This document shows positions 18,293 to 28,290 of a stretch of 45,585 nt of DNA, piece after piece. Within the stretch, counting starts at the first letter, position 1. The number at the start of each line of letters is the position of its first letter. Source of the DNA: Candidatus Colimorpha merdihippi (GTDB taxonomy: Bacteria; Bacteroidota; Bacteroidia; Bacteroidales; P3); NCBI GenBank assembly GCA_018066145.1, contig JAGHRY010000007.1, positions 1 to 45,585 on the forward strand. The letters run 5' to 3'. The notes under the pieces are model-generated. The model was not told where the DNA came from. It made no database searches and was given only the letters and a program-made list of their open reading frames with translations. The translations under genes were made by a program, and so were the position numbers.

Positions 18293-21200
18293 TTAGTTGA
18301 TAGCGATTGTATGCACCTGTCCATCGTCTACCAGTTGCACCCGGGCAGTTTGCTGGCTGCCGGAACTGCGTTTGTAAACAATATGGTAGGTGGCAGAGCC
18401 ATAGTGGTAGTCGGCCTCGAAAGAATCCCAATCGGAAGGAACATGGGGGTTGATAACAAGGGTATCGGCCTCCTTCTGCAAACCCAGAATATACTCGACA
18501 CCCGTCTTGTAGGCCCACGAAGCCGAACCGGTATACCAAGTCCAGCCGCCGCGGCCGGGATGCTGGGGATTGCTATAAATATCAGCAGCAATACAATACG
18601 GCTCGACTTTATACTTGAGCACATCGGCCAGCGTAGAGGTGCGATGGATGGGATTGATGAGCGAATAGAGGAAATATGCCATGTCTACCCTACCCTCCTT
18701 AAGTTGCGCCATGATGTACCACATAGCGCCATGGGTGTACTGTCCACCATTCTCGCGCACGCCTACAGGATAGCGCATGATGTATCCGGGATTGTCGGCC
18801 GAACGGGCAAAGGCGGGGGTAAGCAGTTGAATAATCTCGTGTTCACGGTTGACAAGGCGGGCATCAGTCTCGCGGAATACCGATTCTTTCTGCTGCGGCG
18901 TGGCCACATCGGTGAGGATAGACCATGCTTGGGAAATAAGGTCGATTTGACATTCGGTGTTGTTGCGCGAGCCCATGGGGCGTCCATTATCAAAATAGGC
19001 ACGCAGGAACCAAGAGCCATCCCAGGCATTCTTCTGGAGGGCATCGACAAGGCGGGTCCGGAAATCGGTAAGCTCGCTAATGTACGACAAATCGGCACCG
19101 GGAACCATCTGGGTAAGCTCTTCCATCTTGGGGAGTATATCGCACAGGAAGAAAGCGACCCAAACACTCTCGCCTTTGCCTTGCACGCCTACGGCAGACA
19201 TTCCATCGTTCCAGTCGCCGCACCCCATCAAGGGGAGTCCATGCTGGCCGATGCGGTTCATGGAGCGGTTGACAGCCCGCCGCAAATGTTCGTAGAGCGA
19301 AGCATATTGGTAATTGAAATCGCGTTTATCGATGGAAGTGGCCACTTTGAATTCGGGTACAGTATAGCGCATGCCGCGTTCGGCTTCGCCGGGATTCAGC
19401 TGCTCGGCCTGACAGAAACACACCTGCTCTGTGAGGATGGAAGTGTCGCCAGTAACCTTGATATACTGATAGGTGACGTATGGCAGCCATAGATAATCGT
19501 CGCTGAAAGTGGTTCGGGAGCCTAGCAAGATGCTCTCGTGCCACCAATGGAGCACGTCTCCTTCGGCAAACTGGTGGGCAGCATGCTCGAGTATCTGACG
19601 GCGGGCATAGGCCGGGTCGCTATATAGTACCGACATGCTATCCTGCAACTGATCACGGAAACCTGTGGCACCACCCACCTGATAGAAACCGGCACGGGCA
19701 AACAAGCGCGATGCATATACCTGATAGAGATACCAGCGGTTAAGCATGTAATTGAACGACTTGTCGGGGGTAGACACCTGGATGTTGCCGAGTTTGTCGT
19801 CCCAGAATTTCGTCACCTTCGCATATTCCTCCTCGATGAGGGGGATGGTAATGCGGCGAGGCTGGTCGGTAGGATGCTCGAGGACCGACACCATATAGGC
19901 AAACTCGCTGGTGCCATTGGCAGGAACCAAGGCATGGAAACCAAGGCGTTTGCGATTGGGGAAGGAAAGGTCGACATCGGTAATTTCTTCGGTAGCAGAA
20001 ATCTGCACACGCGAATTGCGATACACTTCGTGGTATACATTGCGCACCAGGAGGCTATTCTGCTCAGGCTTCCATTCCGAATAGAGATAGCGCGCCGTTT
20101 GTTCCTCGGTAGTGCCAAGCACAAGCTTGTAGAGCATGTCGATCTGAAGGTCGAGGGGATTGTCGGTTTTATTAACCAACTGAACCTGGTAATACTTCTC
20201 GAGCCGTTCGGCCGAAACAAACACACGCACCTTGATAACAAACTGGTCGTATTCGGCATCAAAAGCCGAAAAGCCCTGGCCATGGCGTGCTGTTGCAGGC
20301 ACAAACTGCTGCTTGTTGACCAGCAACATCTCGGAAGCATTATCGCGAACAATATCGTTGCTCCAGCCTGTGAGTTTGAACTGTTGGGCGTTGAATGCAA
20401 ATGTAAAGCCCGACATAGTGGCGCTAACGATAGCACCAAACCGGGGATTGGCCAGCACGTTAACCCATGGCATTGGCGTGTTGGTGTTGGTGATGACATA
20501 ATCGCGTCCTTGATTGTCGAAGCCGCCATATTGGTTGTAGAAATCGAGTGCCGACCACACATGATGCTTGGATGTGGGTTTGAGTACCGGATATTCAACC
20601 ATGTCCTGATAGTGCTGGTTGGCCTGTTCGGCCTGTTGGAGCTGCTCGTAGATTTTGATGCCATCGCGGGTGTTGAACGAGAGATGGGCCACCGTGCGAA
20701 GCAATGTGCGCTCGTCTTGCGAAATCTCATCGCCGTTGAGAATAAACACCCTTCCTTCCTTGATTTGCGATGCCCACAAGTGTTCGGTATTGGCAATATT
20801 GCGGATGAAATGGGTGAGGCCGTCGCGGTTTTCGCCCTTTTCATCATTAATGAATACAATATCTATAATAAGGCCGCGCACCTTCCAATACTCGTAGGCG
20901 CGGAGTGTTTCTTTGGCAAATCCCGAATATTTAATATCGTCGATCTCCATCAGCAGAATATCCAAGTCGCCCGAGATGCCGAAACGCCATAGGCCCGACT
21001 GTGCCAAACGATTTTGTCGCAGATACTGCTGACGGTCGTTGCCTAGGGTGGCCGTTTGGAGGAAATACTTGGAGAGGTTATTGTAAAGCGTCATCTGCGC
21101 GCCCTTGAGAAGCGACATGGAATTGCGCATATTATTGAATACCGACGAAGTGCTGAAGGCATTCTCAATATCGATAGCATCGCTGTAAGCCTCGGCAATG

Positions 21201-24200
21201 TCGATAAGCTGCTCGCGAGCCTTGCCGAAACCGGTGAGGATGGCCACCTGCACCTGCTTGCCGGCTTTTACATGGATGCGGCGGCGCATGCTAACAATGG
21301 GATCGAGGGTGGTGCCTACCGTGCCGCTGAGGGTGCGGTGGCTCTCGATAATATCGGCATGGAGCAGGCTGCCGCCTCGACCGAGGAATCGAAGGCGAGA
21401 AGTCTCGCACTCAGGAACAGTAGCAATTGGCTGTCCTTCATCATCAAAAGCCATGAGTTTGTGCATCACGAAATAGCGGCTCTCGCGAGCCTCCTTCACC
21501 GGCTTGCTAAGCAGCAGCAGCTGGTGATGGGCATCGTATTCCGAGAAAATGCTCATCGAGTTGAATACACGGTGCGCCTCATCGGCCTGGTGGGGAGAGA
21601 GCACTACCTCGGCATAGCTGGTGAGCTCGAGATCGAGATCGCGACTGCCATTATTGGTAAACGTAACACGGCGAATTTCGGCAAACCGATCCTTGGCCAC
21701 TGTAATTTCGGTCTTGGTCTCAACCTCATCGTCAACACGTAGGAACTGGATTTTGTCGGAAGCAAAAGTAGCACGATACTTGGCCGGCATCACGTCGAGG
21801 GGCGCATAGGTATTGCACCACAGCTTGTCGTTGGCCAGATTGCGCACAAAAAGAAACTGTCCATAGTGGTCGGAACTAATCTTGCGGTAACGGTTGAGCA
21901 GAATATTGCGGAAACGAGAGAAACCCACACCGCGGTCGTTAAGCAGCACCGTATACTCGCCATTGCTGAGCACTCCGATTTCGGGCACGGTGGAAAGGGT
22001 GTCGAACTCGCGCACATCGCTTTCCGATTTAACCTTATCGTACTGATAACGCTTAAACTGGGTAACCTTCAAATCGATATAAGGTTTGATTTGGGCTTTC
22101 TCTTTCAGGAGGGTTTCCATAGACTGCATAACGGGCTCGTTCATGAAATAACGCTGCAGGCAATGGTCGGCCAAATAATTGGTGAGGCTGGCCAATATCA
22201 TGCCCTGGTGGTGTGCGTAATGTGCGCGAACTGCCACGTGGTCTTCCTCGTCGAACGACTCAAAGAAACCCATCTTGTCGTACATGCGCAGTTCTTTAAA
22301 ACGGCGCATATTCTCGAATACGGCACGATCGTTGATGCCAATGGTCATTATGGAGCTGTAGGGCGAAATTACTATGCGGTCGGGAGTGGTATTCTGGAAT
22401 TTCAGGTAAGGCACGCCGAAAGCATGGTATTTGTAGTTTTGCGCATCGTCGAGTTCGTTGTAGGCCGTTTCGGATATACCCCAAGGCAGATGCTGCGTAG
22501 CGTCGGAAGGACGGGGCCCGTTTTCGACATTGGTAATAAAGGAACGTTGGGCACGAATGGCGAAACTATAGGTTTCATCCATCAGCGTGTGGCGATAGGT
22601 GGGGAGGAATATCAGCGGCATGAAATACTCAAACAATGTGCCATACCACGATGCCACCCCTTTAAATCCATTGTATTGCACGAGCGTTTTGTCAAGGCAG
22701 AACCAGTGCTTGTATGGTGCATCGCCCTGGGCAATGGTAAGGAAACTGGTGAGGCGTGCCTCGGATGCAAAGTTATTGTAATGATACGGCAGCAGGCTGT
22801 GGCAGCCATAATCGAATCCAATGCTGAACACATCCAGCTCGGGATTGTACAGTTTCGAGAAATCGGTGTCTTTAATCAGCCGCCCTACTGTGTCCATCAA
22901 TGGGCTGCCCGGGTGATGCTGCGAGAGGTATCCTTTTACCACATAGAGGCAGGCTACAAAATTACCGCTGTCGCAAGTGCTGATAAAATAGTTAGGCAAT
23001 TTGTTGAGGTTGGAAATCTGGTACCAGTTAAACAGGTGGCCGTTCCATTTCTCGAGTTTTTCAACCGTGGCTATTACCTGCGATAGACGTTCGAGGGCAG
23101 CGGTATGGGTGATGAAGCCCAGCTCGGCTGCGGAAATGATGGCAGTGAGCGAATAACCGATATTAGTGGGGGAAGTCTTATAGTCGCACTTCGATTCGCG
23201 ATTGAGCTGGTAATTGTCGGGAATGAGATAATTATTCTCGGGAGTGATAAGGGAATCGAAGAAATGCCAGGTGTCCTGCGCACATTGCTTCACCTCGGCG
23301 GTTTCTTCGCTCTTCAGGCTCTTCTTGTCCTGGGGGAATTTCTTGCCCAGATAGTACATCAGCAAGGGGGCTCCCACCCACATCACGCAGGTGAATGCCG
23401 ATGCCAGCACAAGACCTATTGAAGGACAAATGCGCATGAGCATCACCGTAAGTACCGCCACGAGGAAGGCGCACACATAGTTGAACCAGAATTTGGCCAA
23501 ATAATCATCCAAGGTGCCTTTGGTGCTTTTGGAGGCCTCATCGCTGGGCACCCAGTTGAGCAGGTTCTTGTGGGAGTGGAACATGCGGTATAGCGAACGC
23601 ACAATGGCATCGGTATACATCCAAGCCTCTTTAGGCAGGAGGGCAAACTGCACGAGCGAACGATAAATCACCACGCCGATGCCGCGCAAGAGAGTCATAT
23701 AATAGCGGTAGCGTTTATTGAACTGGGGCAGGTGGGCAAGCTGGCCCATCAGGAAAAACAGTATCGGGCAAGCCACCACCAACAGCACTGCCACCACATA
23801 CCATGCCGGCGATACCGAGCCAGGCATCGTATAGAGTGCCTGGGCATAGCCGAAAAGGAGGGCTACCACACATGCAAGGCTGAGTACCGATCGGCGGAGA
23901 TTATCAAATATCTTCCAACGGCCGATGGCGTTAACCTGGTTGTCAACCTCCATATTGCGTTCGTTGCGCACCTTCTTGCCAAGCCAGGAGATAATCTGCC
24001 AGTCGCCGCGTGTCCAGCGGTGATGACGCTTGGCATCATCAAGATAGTTGCTGGGATTGTCGTCGAACAGTTCCACATCGTTGATTAATCCGCAGCGTAT
24101 ATGGCAGCCTTCGATGAGGTCGTGGCTGAGAATGAGGTTTTGAGGGAAGGTGCCTTTGAGCACTGTTTGAAACACCTGCAGGTCGTAGATGCCCTTTCCG

Positions 24201-25936
24201 CAGAATGAACCTTCATTAAAGATGTCTTGATACAGCTCGAACGATGCTGTGGTATATACGTCCAAGCCTCCCAAGCCGGCAAACAGCTGCGCATAGCGCG
24301 ATTTATGGGTCACTTCCACATCCACATTCACGCGAGGCTGCATGATGCCATAACCGGCTTCCACACGCAGGCCGTCGTTGGAAAGGCGGGCCCTATTGAG
24401 GGGATGGGCCATAGCGCCGATGAGTTTCTGGGCCGAATAAAGCACCAGTTGGGTATCGGTGTCGAGGGTGATAACGAATGTGATGGGAACCACGGGCAGT
24501 GTGCGCCACTGCGATAGGGTCTCGCAGCGGAAGTATCGCTGGATTTCGTCATCGCTGAGGTTGCCCAGCAGCAGGTCGTTGAAATGGAGGATGGCGCCGC
24601 GTTTGCGCTCGAAACCAAGCCAGCAGCCCTCGCCCTCGCTATAGGCGCGGCGGCGATAAACAAAGTTAAAGATGGGGGCGCCGTATTTGGCATTCAGCTC
24701 GCGCACCTTTGCCATGCCGGCTTCTACCACTTCGTCATCCCATGGCATATCGGCATTGGGGCCTGCTGCAGCATCGCCTATGAGGGTGTAATACAGGTTT
24801 TGGGGGCGACGTTCGAGGCGTTGCCCTTCAGATGCTCTATTTAAATTGGAGAGGTAATAGATTTCAAGCTGTTCGAGAAGCTGAATGGTCTTGTCGCGAT
24901 TTTTCAAAATCGTGGGCATAATGACCATGGTGGCATACTCCTCGGGGATGATGCCGTCCTTGAATTTTAGCTTAAAGGTATTAACAGGTTTATGGAACCA
25001 ATATAGGCATTGGTTGAATAGATCTATCACAATCTGGCTGGCAGGTACCAGCATCAGCACAGCAAAAAGCCACGTCACCCAGCTTCCCCCCACGGCCACA
25101 TACGAAAACAGGGCTGCAACTGCTAAGGTAGCACACGCAACAATGGTTATGTACAGATGGGCCCGCAGCGTATACCGCTTCGGAGGGAATAGCTGCCAGC
25201 CAACATGCTCGCCGCGTTCGTCAGCACGCTCCACCAGGTCCTTCACCAAGTCGTGCTCTTTCATGTGGCGTTTCTTGGTAAGGCGCACTATCTGCGACCG
25301 ATAGTCATCTTTGGTTTTGTCGTACATCTGGTCGTACATGCCGGCTTTCTCGCGTTTGAGCATTCGCTCCGAATAGCTCACGGCGTCAAGCAGTTCCGAC
25401 ATGGGTATCTTGGTCATCTTCTTCAACGAATTGAAGAGATTCATCATCAGCAGATTTTTCTTGGCGGCATCGTTCAGCTTCTCCATATCTGCCGACGACT
25501 TGTCGGTGGGGGAATAATGGTACGCTTTTTCTCCAGCAAGCTCATTGCACAGCCGGGCCAGCTCCGATAGCAGCACCACCTTGGTCAATGGCAGCAGCGC
25601 ACACACTTCGGGATAGGTCAGGTAGTTGTTTTCCTTAGCCTGCATCTGCGAAAGATAGCGAAACAGCACTACTTTGTCTATTTGGAAACGACTCTTGGCC
25701 AATATATTTCGCAGCATGCTTTCGAGCATTTGCATGCGGCTGGAATCAATCTGACGGAATGAGCGACTGCGGAGGTCCACTTTCAGCACCTTTTCCTGCT
25801 CGCTAATCATATAGAAATTGTCGAGCACCCACTCGTTGGTACTGCCCACCAAACGGTGCGACTTCGTTTCTTCTACCAGCAAAAGATAATAGTCGGTGAT
25901 AGCTTTTATATTCTCTTTGAATACTTTATATATCAT
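18293..25936 (-). CDS. Cyclic beta-1,2-glucan synthase-like giant glycosyltransferase (GT84-glucoamylase-GH94)
   Basis: A 2547-residue inner-membrane enzyme matching NdvB/ChvB/Cgs. Visible order: a cytoplasmic N-terminus to about 255; membrane helices at about 262-310; a GT84 domain with the TLDTDTQ motif (Asp492 and Asp494) and HRWTRGDWQ; further helices at about 682-735, 755-775 and 820-870; a glucoamylase-like domain from about 895 (YLIPDNYQLNRESKCDYKTSPTNIGYSLTAI); a beta-sandwich region from about 1330; and a GH94 phosphorylase domain at about 2060-2480 with GFRDQLQDSM and GCGDWNDGM (Asp2241, Asp2244). In Brucella and Agrobacterium such enzymes start, extend, cyclise and trim beta-1,2-glucan. 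The length is close to their 2800 residues. The frame is intact. Whether the product is cyclic or linear cannot be told from sequence. Confidence 0.88.
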   Translation of the reverse strand: MIYKVFKENIKAITDYYLLLVEETKSHRLVGSTNEWVLDNFYMISEQEKVLKVDLRSRSFRQIDSSRMQMLESMLRNILAKSRFQIDKVVLFRYLSQMQAKENNYLTYPEVCALLPLTKVVLLSELARLCNELAGEKAYHYSPTDKSSADMEKLNDAAKKNLLMMNLFNSLKKMTKIPMSELLDAVSYSERMLKREKAGMYDQMYDKTKDDYRSQIVRLTKKRHMKEHDLVKDLVERADERGEHVGWQLFPPKRYTLRAHLYITIVACATLAVAALFSYVAVGGSWVTWLFAVLMLVPASQIVIDLFNQCLYWFHKPVNTFKLKFKDGIIPEEYATMVIMPTILKNRDKTIQLLEQLEIYYLSNLNRASEGQRLERRPQNLYYTLIGDAAAGPNADMPWDDEVVEAGMAKVRELNAKYGAPIFNFVYRRRAYSEGEGCWLGFERKRGAILHFNDLLLGNLSDDEIQRYFRCETLSQWRTLPVVPITFVITLDTDTQLVLYSAQKLIGAMAHPLNRARLSNDGLRVEAGYGIMQPRVNVDVEVTHKSRYAQLFAGLGGLDVYTTASFELYQDIFNEGSFCGKGIYDLQVFQTVLKGTFPQNLILSHDLIEGCHIRCGLINDVELFDDNPSNYLDDAKRHHRWTRGDWQIISWLGKKVRNERNMEVDNQVNAIGRWKIFDNLRRSVLSLACVVALLFGYAQALYTMPGSVSPAWYVVAVLLVVACPILFFLMGQLAHLPQFNKRYRYYMTLLRGIGVVIYRSLVQFALLPKEAWMYTDAIVRSLYRMFHSHKNLLNWVPSDEASKSTKGTLDDYLAKFWFNYVCAFLVAVLTVMLMRICPSIGLVLASAFTCVMWVGAPLLMYYLGKKFPQDKKSLKSEETAEVKQCAQDTWHFFDSLITPENNYLIPDNYQLNRESKCDYKTSPTNIGYSLTAIISAAELGFITHTAALERLSQVIATVEKLEKWNGHLFNWYQISNLNKLPNYFISTCDSGNFVACLYVVKGYLSQHHPGSPLMDTVGRLIKDTDFSKLYNPELDVFSIGFDYGCHSLLPYHYNNFASEARLTSFLTIAQGDAPYKHWFCLDKTLVQYNGFKGVASWYGTLFEYFMPLIFLPTYRHTLMDETYSFAIRAQRSFITNVENGPRPSDATQHLPWGISETAYNELDDAQNYKYHAFGVPYLKFQNTTPDRIVISPYSSIMTIGINDRAVFENMRRFKELRMYDKMGFFESFDEEDHVAVRAHYAHHQGMILASLTNYLADHCLQRYFMNEPVMQSMETLLKEKAQIKPYIDLKVTQFKRYQYDKVKSESDVREFDTLSTVPEIGVLSNGEYTVLLNDRGVGFSRFRNILLNRYRKISSDHYGQFLFVRNLANDKLWCNTYAPLDVMPAKYRATFASDKIQFLRVDDEVETKTEITVAKDRFAEIRRVTFTNNGSRDLDLELTSYAEVVLSPHQADEAHRVFNSMSIFSEYDAHHQLLLLSKPVKEARESRYFVMHKLMAFDDEGQPIATVPECETSRLRFLGRGGSLLHADIIESHRTLSGTVGTTLDPIVSMRRRIHVKAGKQVQVAILTGFGKAREQLIDIAEAYSDAIDIENAFSTSSVFNNMRNSMSLLKGAQMTLYNNLSKYFLQTATLGNDRQQYLRQNRLAQSGLWRFGISGDLDILLMEIDDIKYSGFAKETLRAYEYWKVRGLIIDIVFINDEKGENRDGLTHFIRNIANTEHLWASQIKEGRVFILNGDEISQDERTLLRTVAHLSFNTRDGIKIYEQLQQAEQANQHYQDMVEYPVLKPTSKHHVWSALDFYNQYGGFDNQGRDYVITNTNTPMPWVNVLANPRFGAIVSATMSGFTFAFNAQQFKLTGWSNDIVRDNASEMLLVNKQQFVPATARHGQGFSAFDAEYDQFVIKVRVFVSAERLEKYYQVQLVNKTDNPLDLQIDMLYKLVLGTTEEQTARYLYSEWKPEQNSLLVRNVYHEVYRNSRVQISATEEITDVDLSFPNRKRLGFHALVPANGTSEFAYMVSVLEHPTDQPRRITIPLIEEEYAKVTKFWDDKLGNIQVSTPDKSFNYMLNRWYLYQVYASRLFARAGFYQVGGATGFRDQLQDSMSVLYSDPAYARRQILEHAAHQFAEGDVLHWWHESILLGSRTTFSDDYLWLPYVTYQYIKVTGDTSILTEQVCFCQAEQLNPGEAERGMRYTVPEFKVATSIDKRDFNYQYASLYEHLRRAVNRSMNRIGQHGLPLMGCGDWNDGMSAVGVQGKGESVWVAFFLCDILPKMEELTQMVPGADLSYISELTDFRTRLVDALQKNAWDGSWFLRAYFDNGRPMGSRNNTECQIDLISQAWSILTDVATPQQKESVFRETDARLVNREHEIIQLLTPAFARSADNPGYIMRYPVGVRENGGQYTHGAMWYIMAQLKEGRVDMAYFLYSLINPIHRTSTLADVLKYKVEPYCIAADIYSNPQHPGRGGWTWYTGSASWAYKTGVEYILGLQKEADTLVINPHVPSDWDSFEADYHYGSATYHIVYKRSSGSQQTARVQLVDDGQVHTIAIN

Positions 25937-26499: not shown

Positions 26500-27600
26500 A
26501 TGGATAATTTTGTAGTTTCTGCTAGAAAATACCGCCCGATGACTTTTGATAGTGTTGTCGGTCAACAACATATCACCACCACTTTAAAAAACGCCATCCG
26601 CACCAACCAGATTGCCCAGGCTTTCCTTTTTTGTGGCCCAAGAGGCGTTGGTAAGACCACCTGCGCCCGAATTTTGGCCAAAACCATCAACTGCACCAAC
26701 CCCACCGACGACATGGAGGCTTGCGGCCAATGCGATAGCTGCCGCAGCTTTGCCAGCAGCGCTTCCATGAATATCTTCGAGCTCGATGCCGCTTCCAACA
26801 ATAGTGTCGACGACATCCGCGAGCTTGTGCAGCAGGTTCAGGTGCCCCCGCAAACCGGCAAATACAAAGTGTACATCATCGATGATGTTCACATGCTTTC
26901 CTCTCAGGCTTTCAATGCTTTCCTCAAAACTCTCGAAGAGCCCCCTGCTTACGCCAAATTCATCCTGGCCACCACCGAAAAGCATAAGATTATCCCCACG
27001 ATTCTCTCTCGCTGCCAGATTTTCGATTTCAAGCGCATCCAAAGCGAGGACATTGTCAACCACTTACGCAATATTGCCGATAAGGAAGGTGTCACCTACG
27101 AAGAAGAGGCACTCCATATCATCGCACACAAGGCCGATGGCGGTTTGCGCGACGCCCTCTCCACTTTCGACCAGCTGGTAAGCTTCACCCGTGGCAACCT
27201 CACACGACAGCTCTGCAACGAAAATCTCAATATCCTCGACTCCGAATACTATTTCCGCCTTGTCGACTATTTCCGCACCGGCAATATCAGCCAAGCCCTC
27301 TTGCTCCACCAGGAAGTAATCCAAAAGGGTTTCGATGGGCAGCATTTCATTACAGGCCTGAGCGAACACCTGCGCAACCTTATGGTTTCGCTCGATCCTG
27401 CCACCCACCAGCTGTTGGAGGTGAGCGAATCTCAGCGCGGCAGATATGGCGAGCAGGCCATCACCTGCGGATTGGCCCTGCTGCTGCGGTATCTCGAACT
27501 CTCCAACGACTACGAATTCCGCTATAAGGAAGCCGGCAACAAGCGCCTGTTTGTAGAAGTGGCCCTCATGCGCATGGCCGCCCTGGCCACCAATCCTTAG
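26500..27600 (+). CDS. dnaX: DNA polymerase III gamma/tau subunit, N-terminal part ending at an in-frame TAG
   Basis: The clamp-loader ATPase of the replicative polymerase. From the ATG at 26500 it has 366 residues: Walker A GPRGVGKTT (46-54), the zinc module Cys65, Cys75, Cys78 and Cys81, Walker B IIDDVH (about 126-131, with Asp in place of the usual Glu), and the sensor SRC at 170-172. Domain III runs to the end. The chain stops at TAG (27598-27600) just where the flexible linker to the tau part begins. The same frame then stays open to 28290, giving a 596-codon gene of the usual Bacteroidales DnaX length. The product as written is gamma-like. See the recoding entry and findings. Confidence 0.93.
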   Translation: MDNFVVSARKYRPMTFDSVVGQQHITTTLKNAIRTNQIAQAFLFCGPRGVGKTTCARILAKTINCTNPTDDMEACGQCDSCRSFASSASMNIFELDAASNNSVDDIRELVQQVQVPPQTGKYKVYIIDDVHMLSSQAFNAFLKTLEEPPAYAKFILATTEKHKIIPTILSRCQIFDFKRIQSEDIVNHLRNIADKEGVTYEEEALHIIAHKADGGLRDALSTFDQLVSFTRGNLTRQLCNENLNILDSEYYFRLVDYFRTGNISQALLLHQEVIQKGFDGQHFITGLSEHLRNLMVSLDPATHQLLEVSESQRGRYGEQAITCGLALLLRYLELSNDYEFRYKEAGNKRLFVEVALMRMAALATNP

Positions 27601-27689
27601 ATAGCAAGATCGCCTCAGGCGGGACACGGCAAAAACGAAGCTGCACAATCTCCTGTGCAAGGGGCTTCGCTGCGCAAACCCGAGGCGAT
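27598..27689 (+). promoter_or_regulatory. Putative recoding element: in-frame TAG plus two-tier stem-loop in dnaX
   Basis: TAG at 27598-27600 is followed by an 8-nt spacer and then an outer stem, ATCGCCTC (27609-27616) with GAGGCGAT (27682-27689). Inside is a second stem, CGAAGCTGCACA (27636-27647) with TGTGCA (27654-27659) and GCTTCG (27664-27669), with loop ATCTCC and a 4-nt bulge. All pairs are Watson-Crick. The position just behind a stop fits a structure that promotes stop readthrough. Readthrough here is inference; the stems are seen directly. Confidence 0.4.
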
Positions 27690-28290
27690 AATCAAGGTGG
27701 ATGCGCCCTTTGCCGCCGCAACGCAGCCCTCCACCCCTTCTTCCTCTACTCCCCCAGCCTCTATCCAACCTCCTTCCAAGGAAGACCCTTCAGCATCCAG
27801 CGCTCCTGCCCCGCGCCCCGCTTTTGGCCGTTTGCGCCGCCCAGGCTCCATTTCTATCAAAGATGCCATACCCGACACCCCCCAGGCTGCCCTCAAGCCG
27901 CAGGAGGTGGTAGGTCCACCTTTGGATATCGAGCGTCTGCAATCGCTATGGAACGAAATGGTGGAAGCCATGGGCAAAAGCGACAAAAAAGAATACCAAA
28001 AACTGGCCCTTCAGCTCAAAGACCGCCAGTTGGAGATTGAAGCCGAAGACCAATTTGTCATTATCGTCAGCAACAGTTTCCTCGAATCCGAAATCAAAAA
28101 CTTCCTTATCCAGATACTCTCGTTCCTGCGCAGCAAGAGCCAGCGTCCGCAGCTCAATAGCCGCATCAAGGTGGTTTATGAAGAAAAGAAATCGGTGGCC
28201 TATTCGCCACGCGACAAATACGATGTGATGCAGAAGCACAACCCTGCTATCGACACGTTCCGAATTCTGTTCCCCGAAGTAGATTATTAG
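27655..28290 (+). CDS. dnaX: DnaX C-terminal (tau-specific) part, in frame with the upstream dnaX
   Basis: This frame has no stop from 27601 to 28290 and is the same frame as the upstream dnaX. The first possible internal start is a GTG at 27655, inside the stem-loop; the first in-frame ATG comes much later, inside the folded domain. The 211 residues consist of a Pro/Ser/Ala-rich linker, then GSISIKDA and a folded tail beginning LQSLWNEMVEAMGKSDKKEYQKLAL, which is the usual end of Bacteroidales tau and should contact the polymerase or helicase. It is probably made by readthrough, or the gene carries a nonsense mutation or a sequencing error. It ends in TAG, 14 nt before the antiporter gene. 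Confidence 0.75.
   Translation: MQGASLRKPEAIIKVDAPFAAATQPSTPSSSTPPASIQPPSKEDPSASSAPAPRPAFGRLRRPGSISIKDAIPDTPQAALKPQEVVGPPLDIERLQSLWNEMVEAMGKSDKKEYQKLALQLKDRQLEIEAEDQFVIIVSNSFLESEIKNFLIQILSFLRSKSQRPQLNSRIKVVYEEKKSVAYSPRDKYDVMQKHNPAIDTFRILFPEVDY

Follow-up and report, generated by a model that had tools for sequence, protein, structure and literature searches.

How the tau product of dnaX can be made when an in-frame stop codon separates the gamma part of the gene from its tau-specific part is the question raised by a locus of Candidatus Colimorpha merdihippi. We analyzed a stretch of 45,585 nucleotides (contig JAGHRY010000007.1; hereafter the window), which carries the sole dnaX found in the source genome. 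The dnaX frame runs from an ATG at 26500 to a TAG at 28288-28290 and counts 596 codons, including a single internal in-frame TAG at codon 367, with CCT directly on its 5' side. The part before the internal TAG matches positions 1-364 of the NCBIfam dnaX model PRK14971 and contains the clamp-loader Pfam domains, and the part after it matches positions 397-606 of the same model. An initial annotation made from the letters alone had described a full-length dnaX of 596 codons broken by one TAG, which separates the clamp-loader part from the tau-specific part, and the frame and the two model matches bear out both statements. In its position, the TAG agrees with the recoding sites of dnaX genes that give gamma and tau.

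The initial annotation had proposed an alignment of related genomes to see whether the TAG is kept, and this is the case throughout the genus. Our sample comprised 120 genomes of the genus, seven of which had no match to the gamma part at E 1e-40, leaving 113 readable genomes; a second dnaX of genome G030 (L075) and a locus cut by a contig end (L208) were set aside before this count. The gamma frame terminates in TAG in all 113 and never in TAA or TGA, so the TAG is conserved far beyond chance. Behind it, tau is open in frame 0 for 166-259 further codons in 105 of the 113 loci. Two more (L199 and L217) have the same motif and reach a contig end after 73 and 62 codons, respectively, so that the frame of tau cannot be told for L199; together with the 105 open loci they make up a main class of 107. 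In the other six (L070, L071, L072, L087, L200, and L216), tau lies in the +1 frame.

Searches for dnaX at E 1e-80 gave one gene per genome, with extra matches only in G030 and G052, and tau thus has no other evident source. The second dnaX of G030 is uninterrupted and sits beside the TAG-bearing form, and G052 has a partial second copy (G052:C15:6519-7034); either may be contamination. In two trees built with six uninterrupted outgroup genes, from which two and four main-class loci were left out for length, the outgroups all fell on one side (support 85 and 97). The internal TAG is therefore most simply regarded as ancestral to the genus.

Judged by its substitutions, the tau part is under purifying selection, with dN/dS values of 0.09-0.62 in the 12 estimable pairs of the 14 shown (15 given). 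For the pair L042/L219 the gamma-part dN/dS was nonsensical, probably because one of the two loci is truncated, so the tau values alone were used. With 105 of 113 loci open in frame, the tau part has the features of an in-frame sense extension under selection at the protein level, as expected of readthrough. Conservation of the UAG, of the RNA element described below, and of the reading frame is seen in the sequences themselves, as is selection on the tau part.

Of special interest is a compact conserved element of about 32 nt, which consists of W-UAG-AUWGCAAGR-n, a hairpin of 3-4 bp, three nucleotides, and CAYR (Table 1). In the open loci (105), the codon at +1 is ATT (61) or ATA (44), codon +2 is GCA (99), GCT (3), GCG (2), or GCC (1), and codon +3 is AGA (77), AGG (27), or AGT (1). 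Except for the single AGT, all changes at these three codons are at synonymous third bases, a pattern that fits in-frame decoding straight after the UAG.

Table 1. Features of the dnaX locus, with positions in the window.
Feature	Position	Strand	Remarks
Gamma reading frame of dnaX, clamp-loader part	26500..27600	+	366 codons + TAG
Codon 5' of the stop	27595..27597	+	CCT, Pro
Proposed recoded stop, in-frame TAG	27598..27600	+	TAG in 113/113 readable genus genomes
Tau-specific part	27601..28290	+	229 frame-0 codons + stop; dN/dS <1 in relatives
Conserved 10-nt spacer AUWGCAAGRn	27601..27610	+	here ATAGCAAGAT, codons Ile-Ala-Arg
Short hairpin CGCC-TCA-GGCG	27611..27621	+	begins 10 nt after the TAG
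Element tail, here GGA CACG	27622..27628	+	three nt, mostly purines, then CAYR; CAY 3 nt past the stem
Two-tier stem of the initial annotation	27609..27689	+	outer arms present here, not conserved; not counted as functional

The hairpin begins 10 nt past the TAG and belongs mainly to one of three types: CGC(C)-loop-(G)GCG, GCC-loop-GGC, or a bulged G-Y-CCC-GNRA-GGG-C. In 112 of the 113 loci, all except L030, the start of a hairpin with 3 or more bp lies no further than 3 nt from this place. Strong hairpins (score at least 8.5) were found in 92% of the loci vs. 20% of 3051 control windows, which were taken further along the same genes; the six +1 loci were searched from nearer the TAG. When the 107 main-class loci were aligned with MAFFT, RNAalifold gave no consensus structure, we think because the hairpin types differ in length. 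A test based on anchors took its place, in which the 5' arm is placed by its distance from the TAG and the 3' arm by its distance from CAY only. All three stem pairs were present in 109 of the 110 CAY-bearing loci (shuffled mean 57.9, maximum 74); the CAY anchor is absent in three of the 113 loci (L013, L030, and L207). Of 104 main-class loci, 62 have CAY in codon phase 0, 41 in phase 2, and one in phase 1. CAYR is thus kept across codon phases while the amino acids change, pointing to a constraint on the RNA.

A downstream RNA structure is therefore conserved in the genus, with weak covariation inside the hairpin types (one double change each, a score reached by 64/500 and 29/500 shuffles). 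Across types we counted seven distinct arm combinations, six of which are paired (shuffled mean 3.6, maximum 6), which means that independent compensations are few. The window has no match in Rfam at the gathering threshold. We built a covariance model, R1, on the commonest hairpin type (type I) alone. Among 190 genomes of the family, it gave 73 matches at E <1e-4, all of them at the dnaX of this genus, with dnaX sites of other hairpin types weaker or missed and chance matches outside the genus from 2e-4. Among 393 genomes of the order, it gave two matches at E 1e-4, both again in this genus; the large searches were run under stricter filters, and the absence of R1 elsewhere concerns the type I form only.

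The codon before the stop is also constrained. At residue -1, 97 of the 107 main-class loci have Gly, Pro, Thr, or Ser, compared with 222 of 856 residues at positions -9 to -2, and Ala, the commonest residue at those positions, is found only once at -1. The third base is A or T in 95 of the 97 Gly/Pro/Thr/Ser codons, compared with 565 of 1975 in the preceding codons, and GGA is the commonest codon before the UAG (37 of 105 open loci). The stop and its local context are thus conserved beyond chance in the genus, as expected of readthrough. Slow release has been reported for peptides ending in Pro or Gly, both of which raise termination error when placed before a stop, and Thr has been described as depleted before stops (PMC7246954, PMC11126739). 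In Mycoplasma, a C-terminal Pro or Thr was reported to leave the protein level unchanged (PMC7246954). Considered together with the reports on slow release, the choice of Gly, Pro, Thr, and Ser at residue -1 fits a weakened stop.

We consider it highly likely, from these comparisons between genomes, that programmed UAG readthrough sets the gamma/tau ratio in the dnaX of this genus. A fraction of the ribosomes would terminate at the internal UAG through RF1 and yield gamma, which would have 366 residues in the source genome, and the remaining ribosomes would decode the UAG by a near-cognate tRNA and yield tau, of 596 residues including the one inserted at the UAG. Termination may be weakened by the residue in the P site (Gly, Pro, Thr, or Ser), by the fixed context W-UAG-AUWGCAAGR, and by the small hairpin near the ribosomal mRNA entry together with the RRRCAYR tail. 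At the spacing seen here, the hairpin lies near the mRNA entry when the UAG is in the A site. We infer that the ribosome reads the UAG by means of some tRNA and that the hairpin acts on this step. The initial annotation had also favored a readthrough switch between gamma and tau, and this remains the best-supported reading (TAG in 113/113, frame 0 in 105, and the RNA element), although the stem that it proposed did not stand.

Among the alternatives, the one we would place next, though unlikely, is termination followed by re-initiation at or just after the UAG, the tau part being a separate polypeptide that acts in trans. Readthrough would then not be needed, and the conserved ATW directly after the UAG could serve as a rare start codon. 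Yet none of the 105 open loci has ATG here, which a single change would make from either ATT or ATA. Further along, start codons have no shared position: the first in-frame ATG can be anywhere from codon 17 to codon 210, and the first ATG/GTG/TTG from codon 12 to codon 112. The six minor-class genes have tau in another frame, where the matching codon is NTA. Less likely again is bypassing, in which the peptidyl-tRNA would quit the codon before the UAG and land further downstream on a codon of the same frame, in the manner of phage T4 gene 60. The strong constraint on the codon before the UAG, and the prevalence of GGA there, which is also the take-off site in gene 60, would agree with it; however, many kinds of codon occupy this place, none of them regularly paired with an equivalent landing codon, and the conservation of codons +1 to +3, with its synonymous changes, looks like that of translated sequence. 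The particular variant raised in the initial annotation, a bypass from CCT to a second CCT, has no support in the relatives, because the codon before the TAG is GGA, CCA, GGT, ACA, AGT, or others and the first codons after the TAG are conserved. We give slightly less credence than this to a role of the element in RNA processing or autoregulatory binding, with readthrough as low-level leakage. A conserved RNA signal could indeed bind a protein, the role of the hairpin and the CAYR tail being putative, but its spacing to the UAG is constant, and the minor class keeps hairpin and tail despite the change of frame, with an altered stop context.

The idea that UAG is reassigned genome-wide, or decoded by a pyrrolysine tRNA or another tRNA dedicated to suppression, is less probable than any of these. 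It would account for the constant use of TAG, never TAA or TGA, but within the window UAG acts as an ordinary stop, closing 7 of 23 chosen ORFs, and all 73 R1 matches in the family are at dnaX. No CUA anticodon is present among the 44 tRNA genes of the source genome (94.8% complete); this list is incomplete, with tRNA-Ile GAU and tRNA-Ala UGC both missing, so that a suppressor tRNA may have been missed. PylS was found in none of 119 genomes of the genus, in a search where the control, Methanosarcina acetivorans, was positive, and RF1 scored over the cut-off in 148 of 159 family genomes. In the source genome itself RF1 (prfA) was not found, the single match (L260) being RF2-like with an SPF motif that we take to mark RF2. 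Most likely this is an assembly gap, and the absence of RF1 was dropped as a lead, since RF1 is present in most relatives. Least credible, and close to negligible, is the view that dnaX is decaying or that the TAG arose as an error in sequencing or assembly. Most of the genomes are drafts, but the TAG is common to all 113 readable ones and the tau frame is open and under purifying selection; the comparison within the genus refutes this view.

Returning to programmed readthrough, the six +1 genes show how the site may have changed. They read AGG CNT AGC TAG in the gamma frame and GGC NTA GCT AGR in the tau frame. The tau frame thus encodes Gly-(Ile/Leu)-Ala-Arg, which is near the Ile-Ala-Arg that follows the UAG in the main class and suggests, in these six sequences, that the frame has already changed at AGG C or upstream of it, rather than at the TAG. 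The hairpin and most of the tail are retained, and the stop context is changed. Monophyly of the six genes was not rejected (p-AU 0.397), so we do not claim several origins. From these patterns it seems probable that a cis-acting RNA element programs efficient UAG readthrough in dnaX and that one or a few sublineages turned to +1 frameshifting with the hairpin kept. If true, recoding of different kinds may be promoted by one and the same element, and the genus would hold a stop-redefining signal in a bacterial chromosomal gene that involves neither selenocysteine nor pyrrolysine.

Split dnaX genes are common in the order, and the in-frame UAG form was seen in this genus only. A match to dnaX was found in 278 of 295 genomes of the order, and from the best 150 or so of these 278 matches we chose 19 genes with a short or odd frame. 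One of them (L294) ends at a contig end; among the 18 assessed, tau lies in the -1 frame in 13 and in the +1 frame in four, and L312 has no clear continuation. An A-run precedes the stop in 15 of the 17 out-of-frame genes. In the genus of the window, frame 0 carries tau in 105 of 113 loci, and in the contexts inspected the 21 nt upstream of the TAG are free of A-runs. Closer to the window genus, dnaX is uninterrupted in the four genomes seen of genus g5 and in five of six genomes of g2, the sixth being a fragment. The loci read from g3 (6) and g4 (13) have an A-run, then a stop, and their tau part continues in the -1 frame. These genes (L090-L094 and L228 in g3; L095-L101 and L222-L227 in g4) are of the known two-ORF kind, common to both sister genera. 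The order thus holds uninterrupted, -1, +1, and in-frame dnaX genes, which would make the evolution of recoding directly comparable.

Some split genes without an A-run deserve mention. The single dnaX of G107 (L103) is split behind TTG GGG GAG with tau in the -1 frame, and that of G068 (L105) behind CCT CCC TCG with tau in the +1 frame; these may be draft errors or further recoding sites. In L297 (G405) and L298 (G190), the other two of the 17 out-of-frame genes and from one genus of another family, tau is in the +1 frame, also without an A-run. Both have tau behind a shared AGG CAA TCG CAG GAG CG, and AGG followed by C is also seen in the +1 variants of the window genus.

Among the titles and abstracts listed in searches of open-licence literature, we found no report of dnaX readthrough. 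The two-ORF dnaX genes of Chlorobium, Chloroherpeton, and others are similar to the present case in that gamma is the standard product and tau needs recoding near the end of gamma (PMC3711429). They differ in that tau of the Chlorobium type is in the -1 frame, mostly at an A-run (PMC3711429), whereas here it is in frame 0 behind a UAG. In E. coli, -1 frameshifting likewise gives two products from one gene, with a hairpin downstream of the recoding site, but the shift at A_AAA_AAG makes gamma (PMC5009743), whereas here termination would give gamma and recoding of the UAG would give tau. Transcriptional slippage in Thermus dnaX serves the same gamma/tau purpose (PMC5009743). Unlike in Thermus, no homopolymer run precedes the stop here and the main class has no change of frame. 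In gammaretroviral gag-pol, a short spacer follows the UAG, as is the case here. The two also have in common an in-frame UAG and a downstream RNA structure (PMC5009743), but the retroviral signal is a large pseudoknot, whereas the dnaX element, in a gene of a bacterial chromosome, has a hairpin of 3-4 bp between conserved flanks. Similarly, bacterial SECIS and pyrrolysine insertion rely on a stop redefined by its context, with a downstream RNA in the SECIS case (PMC8211752). They differ in that the codon here is UAG and not UGA, and no PylS or CUA tRNA was found. Neither an RF2 gene whose in-frame UGA is read through nor an equivalent RF1 gene with UAG is known, according to PMC5009743.

The initial annotation had called readthrough a third, new route to gamma and tau. 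This understates the known ones, as dnaX products arise not only by frameshifting and transcriptional slippage but also by proteolysis in Caulobacter (PMC5009743). UAG readthrough would be a route absent from the dnaX literature that we found, and it would add to these three as a way to set the gamma/tau ratio of the replisome clamp loader. A natural readthrough signal of about 32 nt with more than 100 natural variants could also serve to work out how RF1 is overcome by context and a small hairpin.

The signal proposed in the initial annotation was a two-tier stem, and this fared less well than the TAG. Its 8-bp arm at 27609-27616 does have an exact partner at 27682-27689 in the window, but this pairing is not kept in relatives. 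A partner match of at least 7/8 is found in 12 of 113 loci, the window included, and a control placed 150 nt away gave 5 of 111; among the 11 near relatives listed the best match is 7 and the others are 5-6. The two-tier stem is therefore a property of the source genome. Folding of the 131-nt region is unexceptional in energy (z -1.24, equalled or bettered by 28 of 200 shuffles), and with its outer arms not conserved the stem was dropped as a functional signal.

Elsewhere in the window, the minus strand at 18293-25936 holds a frame of 2547 residues that contains glycoside hydrolase 94 and glycoamylase-like domains, presumably resembling cyclic beta-glucan synthase.
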